Source of the DNA: Phycisphaerae bacterium RAS1
GTDB lineage: Bacteria > Planctomycetota > Phycisphaerae > UBA1845 > Fen-1342
Direction of reading: 5' to 3'
Assembly: GCA_007859745.1 (NCBI GenBank)
Contig: SMLU01000001.1
Span: 868,001-932,000, forward strand
Length of the DNA stretch: 64,000 bases
The first letter of the stretch is position 1; the number at the start of each line of letters is the position of its first letter. Below, one piece after another: positions 4,969 through 59,400 of this stretch. The notes under the pieces are model-generated. The model worked only from the letters and a program-made list of their open reading frames with translations. It was not told the DNA's origin and did not search any database. The translations under genes and the position numbers were made by a program.

Positions 4969-5069
4969 TTCCGAACCCGCCGCGCCAGGCGGAGGGTTGC
5001 CGATCGTTAGCGATCGGCGCCCCACAAGCCGCGGACGTCACCCCGCCGCTCGGCGCGGCGGGTTCGGAC
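4969..5069. repeat. REPIN-like element, family A (copy 1)
   Basis: Head hairpin (TCCGAACCCGCCGCGCCAGG..., degenerate here) and inverted tail hairpin (CACCCCGCCGCTCGGCGCGG... GGTTCGGA) are separated by about 35 bases that include a short palindrome, CGATCGttagCGATCG. It sits in the 4850-5187 gap. The rest of that gap shows no gene, only a small GC palindrome near 5101-5130. Confidence 0.85.
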
Positions 5070-9704: not shown

Positions 9705-10042
9705 GATCGTCACTCCGTTGAAATGCGAAGAACGGGGTTGCCGCGGACTCTGGCGTGCAACCCGCCTTGCCGTTGTGTTGCTGCGCGAAATGTGTGGACG
9801 GACTTTCCACCCGGCCCGGACGGCAGTCGAAATGAACTCATCACCCGCCACAGTCCGCCTCGGCCCTTCGGCCCGGCGGTCTACATGCCTGCTGACAGGA
9901 TGATACCACGGGCGACCGCCGAAGGAAACGGCTCCCACGCCCGGCGCTCCCGCGCCGTCCACGCTCGCTCCCGCGTCTGCCGCGCCATCTGCGACGGGCG
10001 GCACGCCCAGGGTTGACCGCAGGGCCGCGCGGGCCTGTCTAT
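9705..10042. other. Gap with no recognisable gene
   Basis: The 338 bases upstream of the C25 protease hold no convincing reading frame. One + frame near 9900-10015 is rich in Pro, Ala and Thr but has stop codons before it and runs into repeat DNA, so it is at most a remnant. The promoter of the protease should lie in the part next to 9704, but I see no clear -35/-10 pair. Confidence 0.5.
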
Positions 10043-10140
10043 CAGAACCCGCCGCGCCAAGCGGCGGGGTGACGTCCGCGGCCTGTGTGACGCCGCTTGA
10101 CCACGATCGTCACCCCGCCGCTTGGCGCGGCGGGTTCCGA
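10043..10140. repeat. REPIN-like element, family A (copy 2)
   Basis: Head hairpin CCCGCCGC-GCCAA-GCGGCGGG and its inverted copy at the right end enclose about 35 bases. It lies directly upstream of the SRPBCC/ArsR promoter, ending about 18 bases before the -35 box. Confidence 0.9.
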
Positions 10141-11071: not shown

Positions 11072-12547
<1,476 letters not shown>

Positions 12548-18996: not shown

Positions 18997-19095
18997 TCCG
19001 AACCCGCCGCGCCAAGCGGCGGGGTAACGTCCCCGGCCTGTGCGAAGCCGCTGGACTCCGATCGTCAACCCGCCGCTTGGCGCGGCGGGTTCGGA
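18997..19095. repeat. REPIN-like element, family A (copy 3)
   Basis: Complete head and inverted tail hairpins with GCCAA/TTGGC loops and about 30 bases between. It lies in the 18874-19227 gap between the membrane protein gene and tRNA-Val. The rest of that gap holds only the tRNA promoter. Confidence 0.9.
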
Positions 19096-20412: not shown

Positions 20413-20551
20413 CGAGTGACGCGTGAAAGGTGACACGTGAAAGGTGACAAGTGAAAGGTGACAGATGACCGCGGAGCGTCGCGTGTCACCTGTCACCTGT
20501 CACCTGTCACCTGCCACCTGTCACCTGCCACCTGCCACTTGCCACTCGTCA
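20410..20551. repeat. Inverted GGTGACA/TGTCACC short tandem repeat at a convergent junction
   Basis: Tandem AAGGTGACA-type units (20410-20468) are followed by tandem CACCTGTCACCTGCC-type units (20484-20551), giving a long imperfect hairpin. Both flanking genes end in it: the PAP2 gene with AAG TGA CGAGTG and the permease with GGG TGA CGAGTG on the other strand. It could serve as a two-way terminator. Confidence 0.75.
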
Positions 20552-22030
20552 CCCGGCACGCCGCTGGCGGTGAAATCGTGCCAGATACAGCCCCACCGCC
20601 GCCGCGATCCAGATCAGCCCGACCACCGCCGCCGCACGGGTGTCGCGGTCCAGGTAGGCGCCGATCATGATCGCCGCCTCACCCGCGCAGAAAATCGCCG
20701 GGGCGAGCGGATACCCAAATCGCGGCGCTGCCGCGCTCGCCGCCCGCCGCGCCAGCACAAACGCCGAGACGCCGGTCAGGAAAAAGAACACGCCGTCCAC
20801 GAAGACCACCCCCGTCAGCAGCCGATCGACGCCGTTCAACCCCGCCGCCAGAACCAGCACGATGCCCAGTCCCGCGAGGAGCAGCACCGCCGCCCACGGC
20901 GTCGCGAAACGCGGGTCCAGCCGCGAAAAAAGCGCGAAGAAGCGGCCATCCTCCGCCATGCGGTAGATCAGCCGCGGGCCGGAAAGTAGTTGGGCATTCA
21001 GCACGCCCAGCGCCGACACCGCCACCATCGCCGCTGCCGCCTGCCGCCCGATCCCCGGCCAGACCGCCCCGACCGCATCGGCCGCCAGCGCCCGGCTGCT
21101 CGCTACGCCCTCATACCCCAGCAGCCGCAGATAGGCCGCGTTGATCAGTACGTAGGCGATGATGACCGTGACCACGCCGACAACGATCGCCAGCGGCACG
21201 TTGCGCGATGGGTTGCGAATCTCTCCGCCGATCCACAACGCATGCTGCCACCCGCCATACGCAAAGAACGACGGCACAATCGCGGCCGGCAGCAGCACGA
21301 GCATGCTCCAAAACGCCGGCGGCGCGGGAGATTGAGCGCGCGCCGACGAAGCCGCTTGCGAAATCGCCTGCGATGTCGATTGCGCCGTCGCCGCCGGCGC
21401 TCCCCCCGCCGCCGCCGCCAGCACCACGATCAGCGCCACGGCGGCCAGCCTTGCCAGCACGGTCGCATTCTGTACGCCCGCGCCGGTTCTTACACCAACA
21501 ACGTTCGCCGCAGCCAGCGCTGCGATCAGGCGGATTGCTGCCCCCGCTGTCATGCTCGGGCTTGCGTCTTCTCCGGCGATTGCCAAATGCAGGTTCATCG
21601 CACAGATCATGGCGATAATGGCGATCGCCCCGGCCTGGATCGCCGTCGCGTTGCAGAAGACGAAGACGAACGCCGGCAGCGGGCCCAGCGCGTCGCGCAG
21701 CACCTCGTACTGCCCGCCGGCTTGCGTGCAGATCGCGCCGAGCCGGGCGAACGTCAGCCCGCCGGCCAGCGCGATCGCTCCGCCCAGAGCCCACGCCAGC
21801 AGTGCGGCCTGTCCGCTTCCCGCGAGTTTCGCGACAGTGCTGGGCGTGAAGAAGATTCCGACGCCGATGATCGCGCCGATAACGATCGCGGTGGCGTCCA
21901 GCGGGCCCAGCACGCGCTTCAGCCCGTCCGGTTGGTCTTGCACTGCCGCCTGCGTGCTCGCCGGCGATGACGGTTCAGTTCCCCGTGTGGGGTCCGTACT
22001 TGACTTCACGCGCGCTCCGTTCTCGGCCAT
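20549..22030 (-). CDS. APC-superfamily amino acid permease
   Basis: 493 residues with about 12 membrane helices starting near residue 40. The first helix has LDATAIVIGAIIGVGIFFTP, matching the GxGIF-type substrate-binding break of APC transporters, and helix 6 lies near FFAYGGWQHALWIGGEIRNP, also a family signature. It should import or exchange amino acids at the inner membrane; the specific substrate is unclear. An Ala/Ser/Gln-rich loop at about 225-250 is low complexity. Confidence 0.9.
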   Translation of the reverse strand: MAENGARVKSSTDPTRGTEPSSPASTQAAVQDQPDGLKRVLGPLDATAIVIGAIIGVGIFFTPSTVAKLAGSGQAALLAWALGGAIALAGGLTFARLGAICTQAGGQYEVLRDALGPLPAFVFVFCNATAIQAGAIAIIAMICAMNLHLAIAGEDASPSMTAGAAIRLIAALAAANVVGVRTGAGVQNATVLARLAAVALIVVLAAAAGGAPAATAQSTSQAISQAASSARAQSPAPPAFWSMLVLLPAAIVPSFFAYGGWQHALWIGGEIRNPSRNVPLAIVVGVVTVIIAYVLINAAYLRLLGYEGVASSRALAADAVGAVWPGIGRQAAAAMVAVSALGVLNAQLLSGPRLIYRMAEDGRFFALFSRLDPRFATPWAAVLLLAGLGIVLVLAAGLNGVDRLLTGVVFVDGVFFFLTGVSAFVLARRAASAAAPRFGYPLAPAIFCAGEAAIMIGAYLDRDTRAAAVVGLIWIAAAVGLYLARFHRQRRAG

Positions 22031-24254: not shown

Positions 24255-24367
24255 TCCGAACCCGCCGCGCCAAGCGGCGGGGTGAGCCCTCGGAGGCGGC
24301 GCGCGCAGCACCCGTCACCGCGGCCTCGCAGGGTAGTCACCCCGCCGCTTGGCGCGGCGGGTTCGGA
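24255..24367. repeat. REPIN-like element, family A (copy 4)
   Basis: Full head and inverted tail hairpins enclosing about 48 bases in the gap between rnpA and the propeller-protein gene. Confidence 0.9.
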
Positions 24368-28105: not shown

Positions 28106-28246
28106 TCCGAACCCGCCGCGCCAAGCGGCGGGGTGACGTGTCGGTCCGGTCCGAACCCGCCGCGCCAAGCGGCGGGGTGACGATCGTTGGCGATCGCGCC
28201 CCACATCCACGGACGTAACGCCGCCGCTTGGCGCGGCGGGTTCGGA
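28106..28246. repeat. REPIN-like element, family A (copy 5, double head)
   Basis: Two direct head hairpins (from 28106 and from 28150) are followed by a single inverted tail ending at 28246, so the head has been duplicated. The 27941-28451 gap otherwise holds no gene. TTTAATTG ... GACGATAG at 28362-28390 vaguely resembles a flagellar sigma-28 promoter ahead of the fliL-like gene, but the spacing is two bases too long. Confidence 0.85.
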
Positions 28247-32874: not shown

Positions 32875-33936
32875 ATGGCCGCTGACGACGCTGGCGAAAA
32901 AACTGAGCAACCGACCGCGCGGCGCTTGCAGGAAGCCCGCGAGGAGGGTCGTGTTGCGCGCAGCGTCGATCTCAGCGGCGCGGTCGCAATTCTCGCGGGC
33001 ATCGTTCTGCTGCGCATGCTCGGCCCCGGCATGCTCGACCGCTTCTTTGGCCTGACGCACACGCTCGGCGACGCCGGCGATCCGACCGCGGGCGACCTGG
33101 GGGTGTGGCTGGTCCGCAGCGCCCGCGTCGCCGCCGAGATCCTGGGGCCGTTCCTGGCGGGCGTGATCCTGATCACGATCAGCGGCACCGTGGCGCAGTC
33201 CGGGCTGCTGCTCTCGACGAAAAAGCTCGCGCCGAAGCTGGATGTGCTGAACCCGGTCAATGGCCTGAAGCGGCTCGTGTCGAGCGACTCCGTCGTGCGC
33301 CTCGGCCAGGGCCTGGCCAAGATGCTGCTGGTCGCATGGGTGGCGTACGTCACGATTCGCGACCGCTTCGGGGACGTGCTGACCTGCGGCGCCATCGGGA
33401 CCGACGCGATCTTGATGCGCTCGGCGGAGTTGCTCTACACGCTGATGCTGCGGCTCGCGCTGGTGATGCTCGTGCTGGGGATCGTGGACTACTTCTGGCA
33501 GCGAAAGAAGCTGAACAAGAGCCTGATGATGACCAAGCAGGAAGTGCGCGACGAGCTGAAGCGCATGGAAGGCGATCCGATGATCCGCCAACGGCGGCGC
33601 GCCCTGCAGCAGAAACTGGCGCTACAGCGGATTAACCGGGACGTTCCGCGGGCGGACGTCGTCGTCACCAATCCGACCGAATTCGCCGTTGCGCTGAAAT
33701 ACGACCAGGCCACCATGGCCGCCCCGCGCGTCGTCGCGAAAGGAACGGATTTCCTCGCCGCCCGCATCCGGCAGGTCGCCCAGCAAAGCGGCGTGCCGGT
33801 CGTGCAGCGCCCGCCGCTGGCGCGGGCGCTCTACGCCGCCGTCGAAGTCGGCCACGAAGTTCCGGCCGGGTACTACCGCGCGGTGGCGGAGGTGCTGGCG
33901 TACGTGTACCGGCTGACGGGCAGGGCGGCGGGATGA
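32875..33936 (+). CDS. flhB: Flagellar export switch protein FlhB
   Basis: 353 residues from the ATG at 32875 (MAADDAGEKTEQPTARRLQE). Four membrane helices are followed by the cytoplasmic domain. The autocleavage loop normally reads NPTH; here it is NPTE at 266-269 (VVVTNPTEFAVALKYD). The cleaving Asn-Pro bond is kept. FlhB switches export from hook to filament proteins. The earlier in-frame start at 32638 is rejected because it translates REP DNA. Confidence 0.96.
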   Translation: MAADDAGEKTEQPTARRLQEAREEGRVARSVDLSGAVAILAGIVLLRMLGPGMLDRFFGLTHTLGDAGDPTAGDLGVWLVRSARVAAEILGPFLAGVILITISGTVAQSGLLLSTKKLAPKLDVLNPVNGLKRLVSSDSVVRLGQGLAKMLLVAWVAYVTIRDRFGDVLTCGAIGTDAILMRSAELLYTLMLRLALVMLVLGIVDYFWQRKKLNKSLMMTKQEVRDELKRMEGDPMIRQRRRALQQKLALQRINRDVPRADVVVTNPTEFAVALKYDQATMAAPRVVAKGTDFLAARIRQVAQQSGVPVVQRPPLARALYAAVEVGHEVPAGYYRAVAEVLAYVYRLTGRAAG

Positions 33937-34011
33937 AGTCAGAAGTGAGAAGTCAGAAGTCAGAGGCAGAAGTTAGAGGGAGAAGTCAGAGGTAGACGTT
34001 AGAGACAGACA
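33937..34011. repeat. AGAAGTC/AGAGGC heptamer-like repeats after flhB
   Basis: Degenerate units such as AGTCAGAAGTGAGAAGTCAG begin right after the flhB TGA. They match the arrays at 12470, 51896 and 54340. Confidence 0.7.
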
Positions 34012-42796: not shown

Positions 42797-42914
42797 TCCG
42801 AACCCGCCGCGCCAAGCGGCGGGTTGAGGTGCGCACGGCGATCGGCGTCAATCTACGATGCGCCGCCGCGGACGCGCCGGACGTCACCCCGCCGCTTGGC
42901 GCGGCGGGTTCGGA
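42797..42914. repeat. REPIN-like element, family A (copy 6)
   Basis: Full head and inverted tail hairpins around a ~50-base centre. It lies in the 42656-42987 gap, which otherwise shows no gene. Confidence 0.9.
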
Positions 42915-49052: not shown

Positions 49053-49085
49053 TCCGAACCCGCCGCGCCAAGCGGCGGGTCGACG
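49053..49085. repeat. Single REP of family A (head only)
   Basis: TCCGAACCCGCCGCGCCAAG and the rest of the head hairpin occur without an inverted tail. It lies just past the end of the homocysteine methyltransferase gene in the 48898-49108 gap. Confidence 0.85.
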
Positions 49086-51808: not shown

Positions 51809-51938
51809 GTCAGAACGCGAAGCGCCAGCGAGCGCGGCCGCGCGAAGACCTGACCCACGTTCGCAGCCGCGCTCGCTGGCGCGTCGCGTTCTGACAACTT
51901 CGGACTTCTGACTTCTTACTTCTGATTTCTGACTTCCC
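51809..51938. repeat. REP family G pair plus heptamer repeats
   Basis: GTCAGAACGCGAAGCGCCAG and the inverted CTGGCGCGTCGCGTTCTGAC (51809-51895) are followed by CTTCTGACTTCTTACTTCTG-type heptamers to 51938, three bases before the speB ATG. Confidence 0.85.
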
Positions 51939-54339: not shown

Positions 54340-54445
54340 AATAAGGAATAAGAAGTAAGAAGTCAGAAGTCAGAAGTCAGAAGTGAAGATGTGCGGCCGC
54401 GTAAACTTCTTGCTTCTTACGTCTGACTTCTAACTTCTGACTTCG
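54340..54445. repeat. Inverted AGAAGTC heptamer array between convergent genes
   Basis: AAGTAAGAAGTCAGAAGTCA... (54348-54389) and TTCTTGCTTCTTACGTCTGA... (54405-54444) are inverted copies that can form a long hairpin between the ends of the membrane gene and ggt. A two-way terminator is plausible. Confidence 0.75.
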
Positions 54446-56403: not shown

Positions 56404-59400
56404 ATGCTGGCCTGGGTTGTTCTCGCGACGTTTGTGACGTTCAACGAGCCGGGGTTTCCGCGGATTGACGTGGGGGAGCTGCCGGCGATCGACGAGGCGG
56501 ACGAGACGCGATCGGTGCCGGAGTTGATCGACGCGCTGAAGCCCGACGCGATTCTCGTCTGGCGACACGGCTCGGCGTTTCCGGCGGATTTCTGGCCGGC
56601 GTTCATGAAGTTTCTCGACGCCGGCGGGTCATTTCTGTACCTGGGCGGCGAGCCTTTCACTCGGTTCGTCGTGGGCGAGCCGGGGAGCCGAATCGTACAG
56701 GCGCGGAGCGTGGCGGGGCTGAAGGCGCTGCGGCTGAATCAGTGCTATCGGGTGAGCGCTGCCGGTGGGACGCGGGAGCTAACCGCGGACGGTAGGGACA
56801 TTTGGCCGATGTTCGGCCGCGGGCTCGAAACGGACGAATTTCAGCCCGGTTCCTGGGTGGCGGTGCTCGAGCCGCGCCTCTGCGAGACACGCGACTTTGA
56901 CGACGAGGATGGCACGGCGGGATCGCGCGACGCCGCGCTTGTGCCGCTTGTATCGCTTCTGCGACGCGGCGAGGCGTTCTCCGACGCGACCCTTGCGTAT
57001 TCGATCGATCGCCTGCGCGGCCGTTGGGCCGGCGGGCGGTGGACCTTTTGGCTGGCCTCGGAACCACCGGGGATGCTCACGATGAAACTGCTGACGCTGG
57101 CAGCCGCGCAGGCGCCGGTAGATCTTCGCATCGACCCGATTCTCGGTTGTTTTCGGCCGGACGAGCATCCGTCGTTCATTGTGCGCTTGCACCTCTCGCG
57201 CAAGTCTCTCGACGACTCGGTGCCCGTGTCCCGCATCCGCGTCAGCGTCGAAGGCGATTCGGAGGAAGCGGCCGCGGAGCGCCAGGAGATTGAACTACGC
57301 GGCCGCACAGCGAGCGCGCAGATTCCGGTGGGTGTCGCGCTGCGTCCCGGGCTGGCTCACGTGAGCGCCGTTCTCGACGGAAAACGAGTCGCGCACACGG
57401 CCTTCTGGGTGTTTGATGCTGCGCTGTTCGAGTCCGGCGACAAGCTCGAATTCGACAACTACACGCTCCGCCGGAGCGGCAAGCCCGAGCCGATCATCGG
57501 CACGACGGTCATGTCGCAGACGGTGCATCGCAAGTTCCTCTTCGAGCCGAACGCGGCGGTGTGGGATGACACGTTTCGCGAACTGGCGGAGCTGAAGATC
57601 AACATGGTCCGCACCGGCGTGTGGACCGGGTATCGCAAAATCTCGCTCGACCCCGGTGTAGTGGACGAGAGCTTTCTGCGGGCGCTGGAGGCGTACTACC
57701 TGTCGGCCCGCAAGCACGGCATCCCGGTGATGTTCACATTCTTCGCGTTTGTGCCGCCGGCGTTTGGCGGGGAGAACCCCTATTTCGATCCGCGGGCGAT
57801 CGAGGGGCAGCGGGCGTATGTGGCGGCGATCGCCGGGCGGTTTGCGGGCGCGAAGGAGATCATGTGGGACCTGATCAACGAGCCGTCGTTCAGCTCGCCA
57901 AAGCACCTGTGGAAGTGCCGGCCGAACGGGGATGAGTTCGAGAAACGCGCGTTTCTGGCGTGGCTGGAGAAGAAGTTCACCCCGCCGCTCGGCGCGGCGG
58001 GTTCGGAAAGACCGGGGAGCGGTGGCCTGTCCGAACCCGGTGCGCCAAGCACCGGGGTGACGTCCAATCGCCCAGCAGTCGCCTCGCCGCCCGTCAGTTC
58101 TCCAATTTCGAACGGCACCCCGCCGCTTGGCGCGGCGGGTTCGGAAAGACCGGGGAGCGGTGGCCTGTCCGAACCCGGTGCGCCAAGCACCGGGGTGACG
58201 TCCAATCGCCCAGCAGTCGCCTCGCCGCCCGTCAGTTCTCCAATTTCGAACGGCACCCCGCCGCTTGGCGCGGCGGGTTCGGAAAGACCGGGGAGCGGTG
58301 GCCTGTCCGAACCCGGTGCGCCAAGCACCGGGGTGACGTCCAATCGCCCAGCAGTCGCCTCGCCGCCCGTCAGTTCTCCAATTTCGAACGGCACCCCGCC
58401 GCTTGGCGCGGCGGGTTCGGAAAGACCGGGGAGCGGTGGCCTGTCCGAACCCGGTGCGCCAAGCACCGGGGTGACGTCCAATCGCCCAGCAGTCGCCTCG
58501 CCGCCCGTCAGTTCTCCAATTTCGAACGGCACCCCGCCGCTCGGCGCGGCGGGTTCGGAAAGACCGGGGAGCGGTGGCCTGTCCGAACCCGGTGCGCCAA
58601 GCACCGGGGTGACGTCCAATCGCCCAGCAGTCGCCTCGCCGCCCGTCAGTTCTCCGACTTCGAACATCACCCCGCCGCTTGGCGCGGCGGGTTCGGACAG
58701 ACTGCGCTCTGACTCCACATCGGCAAATCGAACGGTTGGCTGGGAAGACGAAGTCCGCTCGCGCTGGAGGCTGGCGCCCGGCGAACCCATCGGCCTGCCC
58801 ACGCCGGACGACTTCGAGGACCGCAACGTCTTCGGCGACAACCATCCGTATCGCGCCGCGGACTACGTCTGGTTCGCGCAGGAAGCCTTCGCCGACTGGT
58901 GCCGACAGATGACTGCCGCCATCCGCGACGCCGGCTCCATCGCGCCGATCACCGTCGGTCAGGACGAGGGCGGCCTGACGCAGCGGCCCGGCCCGCTGTT
59001 TCATCACGAGGCGGTCGATTTCACGTCCATGCACACGTGGTGGAACAACGACGCCCTGCTCTGGGACGCCGTCGCCGCCAAGGCGCGGGGCAAGGCGCTG
59101 ATCGTCAGCGAGACCGGCGTCATGCAGCGCGAGCTGCTCAGCGGCGAGGCGCTGCGCCAGCCGGAAGACTCAGCGCGCCTGCTGTCGCGCAAGCTGGCGC
59201 TGGCGTTCGCCGGCGGCGCGGGCGGCGTGATTCAGTGGTGCTACGACGTGAATCCCTACATGGCGTCGGACAACGAAGTCGCCATCGGCCTGCGGCGCGT
59301 GGACGGCAGCTACAAGCCGGAGCACCGCGTCCTGCGCGACTTCGCTGCGTTCGTCGCCCGCAACAAGCAGTACTTCGACGCGCCCCAGGAGCCGAGAATC

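Follow-up and report, generated by a model that had tools for sequence, protein, structure and literature searches.

A coding tandem array of CGTC-tagged REP palindromes between the predicted catalytic residues of a GH5-like glycoside hydrolase of Phycisphaerae bacterium RAS1

A tandem array within a GH5-like hydrolase gene

The window analysed here, a stretch of 64,000 nucleotides from Phycisphaerae bacterium RAS1, contains a 1251-codon gene for a predicted glycoside hydrolase that is interrupted by an in-frame tandem array (Table 1). Outside the array, the protein aligns over its whole length with homologues from several bacterial groups at 29-55% identity. The Pfam profile PF00150 (Cellulase) matches it with 21.6 bits (E 0.00017), just below the curated cut-off of 23.5; the host is called GH5-like (clan GH-A) here and is not assigned to GH5 proper. 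It carries glutamates in NEP and SETG motifs, which in clan GH-A follow strands 4 and 7 of a TIM barrel. The corresponding predicted catalytic residues, Glu493 and Glu903, are invariant in 13 of 13 homologues and lie one on each side of the array, as the sequence-only reading had proposed. The fold matches of an array-free homologue (L021) are mainly to clan GH-A, with GH42 and GH5 among the members on top. The host gene was also sought in 60 near genomes, of which one gave weak matches.

Table 1. Coordinates of the array, its host gene and the other REP sites of the window.
Feature	Position	Strand	Evidence
Host gene of the array, GH5-like glycoside hydrolase (clan GH-A), 1251 codons	56404..60159	+	open frame; Pfam Cellulase E 0.00017; homologues
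Glu493 codon, predicted acid/base, DLINEPS motif	57880..57882	+	invariant in 13 homologues
In-frame tandem array, five units and terminal REP, 240 residues	57978..58697	+	
Unit 1	57978..58115	+	
REP-B of unit 1, recurring every 138 bases	58030..58059	-	
Unit 2	58116..58253	+	
Unit 3	58254..58391	+	
Unit 4	58392..58529	+	
Unit 5, five bases away from units 2-4	58530..58667	+	
Terminal (+) REP-A, partial sixth unit	58668..58697	+	
Glu903 codon, predicted nucleophile, SETG motif	59110..59112	+	invariant in 13 homologues
Head-to-head pair of the same REP	4970..5068		
Further REP sites	10042-10140, 18997-19095, 24255-24367, 42797-42914		
Three-REP site	28106-28246		
Single REP	49053-49082		

Tandem Repeats Finder delimits the array at 57978-58702, with a period of 138 bases, 5.3 copies, 98% matches and 0% indels. 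It consists of five units that are 96-100% alike, followed by 30 bases of a sixth that make up one complete REP. Copies 2-4 are identical, copy 1 is one base away and copy 5 five bases away. The array remains in the frame of its host and contributes exactly 720 nt, or 240 residues. This agrees with the earlier description of five full units and a partial sixth, in frame and adding about 240 residues.

Each unit is ordered as REP-A (+), 22 nt, REP-B (-), 56 nt and the next REP-A (+), the 22-nt spacers being tail-to-tail and the 56-nt spacers head-to-head. REP-B is the same palindrome as REP-A with paired changes in the stem (GCCGC/GCGGC to GGTGC/GCACC), so that the hairpin is kept. Because the unit alternates A in (+) and B in (-), the 138-base period is the spacing of successive REPs of the same direction, and a (+) REP stands at both ends of the array. 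The unit is therefore two alternating REP types and not the single REPIN that had been suggested, although the idea of a REP-type element expanding in frame holds. The 54 bases that close the unit lack relatives at other places in the 2.46 Mb of genome surveyed, and the genome search gave no full-length match to them; they could be gene DNA that was captured.

Four of the six frames of the unit are open, and in the frame that is used 42% of base-shuffled units are open too. The openness of all copies, which the sequence-only reading had stressed, is thus real but weak evidence; the supposedly unusual freedom from stops is ordinary, and openness is ruled out as a sign of selection. The actual constraint on the array is a unit length divisible by three, and this part of the earlier argument stands. 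The reading frame yields an uncharged peptide rich in Pro, Gly, Ser and Ala, with 83% disorder-promoting residues and no net charge per unit.

Comparison with homologues and structure prediction, both proposed earlier, characterise the site further. The repeats occur in none of the 13 homologues, which have short linkers of varied length instead, and the array sits exactly where the family varies in length; this rules out an ancestral domain. In the AlphaFold2 model, the array is a low-confidence coil (pLDDT 25-30) flanked by two helices that reach about 75-80, and in the model of L021 a 17-residue coil joins the corresponding helices. As the alignment comprised just five sequences, overall confidence in the two models is low to modest (mean pLDDT 45 and 55).

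The palindrome in the window and across the genome

The 30-base palindrome has 20 matches in the window including the array, with none expected from shuffles, and lies at seven other places besides the array. It occurs at 847 sites in its own 5.5-Mb genome (at most three mismatches; reversed control 0) and is absent from the 26 other genomes of the family that were searched. The element is a genome-specific, high-copy, CGTC-tagged REP, and these counts substantiate the earlier observation that the array shares its element with intergenic copies.

In a survey of 2.46 Mb (45% of the genome), 413 REPs were counted, which form 212 groups. Most of these are head-to-head pairs (162, with spacers mostly of 38-40 nt); the others are 36 REPs that stand alone, four tail-to-tail pairs and some clusters. 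Among 213 copies, the tag is CGTC in 131, TGTC in 8 and CCTC in 10. The hairpin has a stem of 10 bp and a loop of 5, with A-T pairs at the stem base in the AACCC variant, and the CGG tail has an A after it in most copies. The genome has 20 matches to the Y1 transposase family; none of the 12 that were checked is flanked by a REP, the nearest lying 1.35 kb away, which speaks against mobilisation by a RAYT as far as these 12 go. Given the CGTC tag in place of GTAG and these 12 Y1 matches, the element does not look like a classical RAYT/GTAG REPIN, and that name is not retained.

In these features, the RAS1 element resembles the CGTC-tagged REPs, a super-family apparently without a dedicated transposase (Di Nocera et al., 2013; PMC3733652). 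Shared with that super-family are the tag, which there is CGTC, TGTC or CCTC at one end of the hairpin, the predominance of head-to-head pairs (162 of 212 groups here) over rare tail-to-tail pairs (four), the lack of association with transposases (12 of 20 Y1 matches here) and the occurrence of units that are read in frame within genes, among them uvrA and genes for repair. As to the hairpin, the loop of 5 agrees with the 4-5 of the super-family, and the A-T pairs that occupy its first two stem positions are seen here in the AACCC variant, but the stem measures 10 bp as against 8-9 bp there. The unpaired tail is CGG as against CCA in most, and the RAS1 element is therefore called CGTC-tagged and REP-like here and assigned to none of the four described CGTC families. 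Inverted REP pairs as the unit and ordered, flanked tandem arrays are features that it shares with REPINs, whose largest tandem array (Bertels and Rainey, 2011; PMC3116915) covers 700 bp with four REPINs and an additional REP. Those REPs, however, are extragenic, GTAG-tagged and linked to RAYT genes that have the same REP at their flanks (PMC3116915), whereas the present array is coding, carries CGTC and showed no RAYT link among the 12 of 20 Y1 matches.

A second REP array was observed at L049 1958-2404 (G000:C1:2248457-2248903), where REPs alternate as -+-+-+- with a first period of 130 bases. It is bounded by (-) REPs at both ends, the same end structure as in the hydrolase gene, and no coding frame crosses it, making it a natural comparison for array growth outside genes.

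REPs inside genes and their reading frames

Of the 202 REP groups that could be evaluated in 45% of the genome, just 7 fall within a coding frame, compared with 58% of random positions under the same test; REPs are strongly depleted in genes. The seven hosts are the GH5-like gene, recG, carB, uvrA, an amidohydrolase, a spermidine-synthase-like membrane protein and a TPR membrane protein. Other candidates were discarded: reading the neighbouring ORFs showed that L130 17292, L180 4951 and L189 5591 are gaps between genes, covered by antisense shadow frames, and at L090 13412 and L110 2055 the frame is broken beside the REP. For recG and for carB there is one full locus each; the break in the family profile of recG, at positions 460/465, coincides exactly with its REPs, and carB has a single REP in frame.

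In five of the seven hosts, every REP is read in a first frame, as TPPLGAAGS(E/D) or LSEP(A/G/R)APS, and the single REPs of carB and uvrA are read as PNPPRQAAG and PNPSRQATG, so all seven sites use one of two low-charge frames. The arginine-rich frames RTRRAKRRG and PRRLARRVRK, as well as HPAAWRGGFG, are used by none of the seven, although the genome's REPs have these frames open no less frequently. The nominal probability is 8e-5 for seven low-charge readings out of seven, and 2e-4 for all four multi-REP sites lying wholly in the first frame; as the frame classes were set after the data had been seen and one of the seven sites is the array itself, these values are indications and not proof. 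The pattern is described here as an apparent frame filter on genic REPs.

Within this genome, the genic sites form a series that starts with single REPs (carB, uvrA, L114), continues with sites of two or three REPs (recG, L122, L190) and ends with the five-unit array. L054 2067-2220 (G000:C3:418666-418819) is genic as well but was kept outside the counts, having been chosen for its likeness to the array. There, a tail-to-tail REP pair is read in frame within a 938-codon frame just before a carbohydrate-binding-like domain, and the spacer has grown into short GSDSPA-type peptide repeats.

Other repeats were noted as well. The very long uvrA (L177 8099-13720; G000:C1:228099-233720) encodes 1873 aa with repeated UvrA-type domains and a REP, and has heptamer-type repeats in frame at several places (peptides such as SSELATRYSELAT and SEVRSE). 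Apparently of the same kind are short tandem arrays of 7-base units (such as GGTCAGA and ACTTCTG) in the window, at 12465-12531, 20416-20553, 33935-34009, 51897-51936 and 54349-54444. The single-copy carB (L116 5000-8803; G000:C1:425000-428803; 1267 aa) has its REP in or beside the oligomerisation domain and also bears another, unrelated repeat, which is translated as SRDREGVVHPSRDREGV.

Probable origin of the array and its likely tolerance by the enzyme

The array probably arose from a tolerated insertion of a REP cluster into a surface linker, followed by amplification between REPs of the same direction, in an enzyme that probably remains active. A CGTC-tagged cluster, at least (+)(-)(+), would have entered the length-variable linker, in the loop after the helix that follows the acid/base strand. 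Two REPs of the same direction, acting as direct repeats 30 bases long, would then have allowed replication slippage or unequal recombination to multiply a 138-base segment to five copies; a (+) REP at both ends is what such exchange or slippage is expected to leave. The identity of copies 2-4 indicates that part of this growth is recent. A segment length divisible by three and a reading frame that gives an uncharged Pro/Gly/Ser/Ala-rich peptide would account for the survival of the array, selection presumably clearing insertions elsewhere and in other frames, and the fold would close around a 240-residue loop that is probably disordered in the cell. The earlier proposal that a REP-type element has turned into a coding tandem repeat is upheld by its entry and in-frame expansion in a gene whose homologues lack the array.

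Alternatively, the REP insertion may have inactivated the gene, leaving the array free to grow in a young pseudogene. Such a view can call on the 240 residues inserted within a barrel domain between catalytic residues, on an array openness that is ordinary for its composition, and on an expansion so recent that decay may not yet show; given this apparent recency, intact flanks alone are no proof that the present protein works. Against it, however, the other 1011 codons have no frameshift or stop, the flanks are full length, both predicted catalytic glutamates and the alignment with homologues are intact, the period is a multiple of three, the insertion falls precisely in a variable linker, and the same REP peptides are read in single-copy carB and recG. 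We consider inactivation unlikely; of the two options left by the sequence-only reading, a tolerated loop appears much more likely than an inactive gene, as judged from the predicted catalytic residues, the flanks and the REP peptides of carB and recG.

Pro/Gly/Ser-rich repeats act as linkers in many secreted enzymes, and the neutral unit with its disorder-promoting residues would suit an adaptive domain, such as a spacer or surface-binding segment, whose length is selected. Yet none of the 13 homologues has the array, it lies within the catalytic domain and not between domains, and its sequence belongs to a selfish repeat found 847 times in the genome, which makes this very improbable. An assembly artefact, to which near-identical repeats are prone, is the least credible explanation, as copies 1 and 5 have distinguishing bases, the array spans only 720 bases of a 3.4 Mb contig, and misassembly collapses arrays more often than it expands them.

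The tolerance of the REP array finds support by analogy in the rickettsial palindromic elements (RPE): in Rickettsia, a guanylate kinase that bears an RPE has been shown to be translated and active (PMC2229807). RPEs are likewise palindromic repeats in frame in genes of conserved enzymes (PMC2229807, PMC10969869); they differ in being other sequences of about 105-146 bp and are described there as single insertions, not tandem arrays. In-frame REPs and RPEs, and tandem REPIN arrays between genes, are already known. The largest coding CGTC-REP clusters reported span 43-82 residues (PMC3733652), and a REP array of 240 residues inside a catalytic domain was not found in the REP, REPIN and RPE literature compared. 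Three points are new here: this length, about three times that maximum, the tandem growth within a catalytic domain by which it was reached, and the frame filter that the genic REPs appear to show.

More tentatively, and with considerable doubt on our part, selection may have shaped the REP itself or may filter its insertions, so that the element is translatable in both orientations in one harmless frame; REPs would then be a recurrent, genome-wide source of loops. If true, REPs would supply disordered protein loops even to essential enzymes, and these loops could expand as coding tandem repeats. The array ties selfish palindromic DNA to the origin of protein tandem repeats, two fields that are usually separate, and the series from single REP to array makes the passage from selfish DNA to tolerated protein testable, the two filters being where the loop lies and which frame is read.
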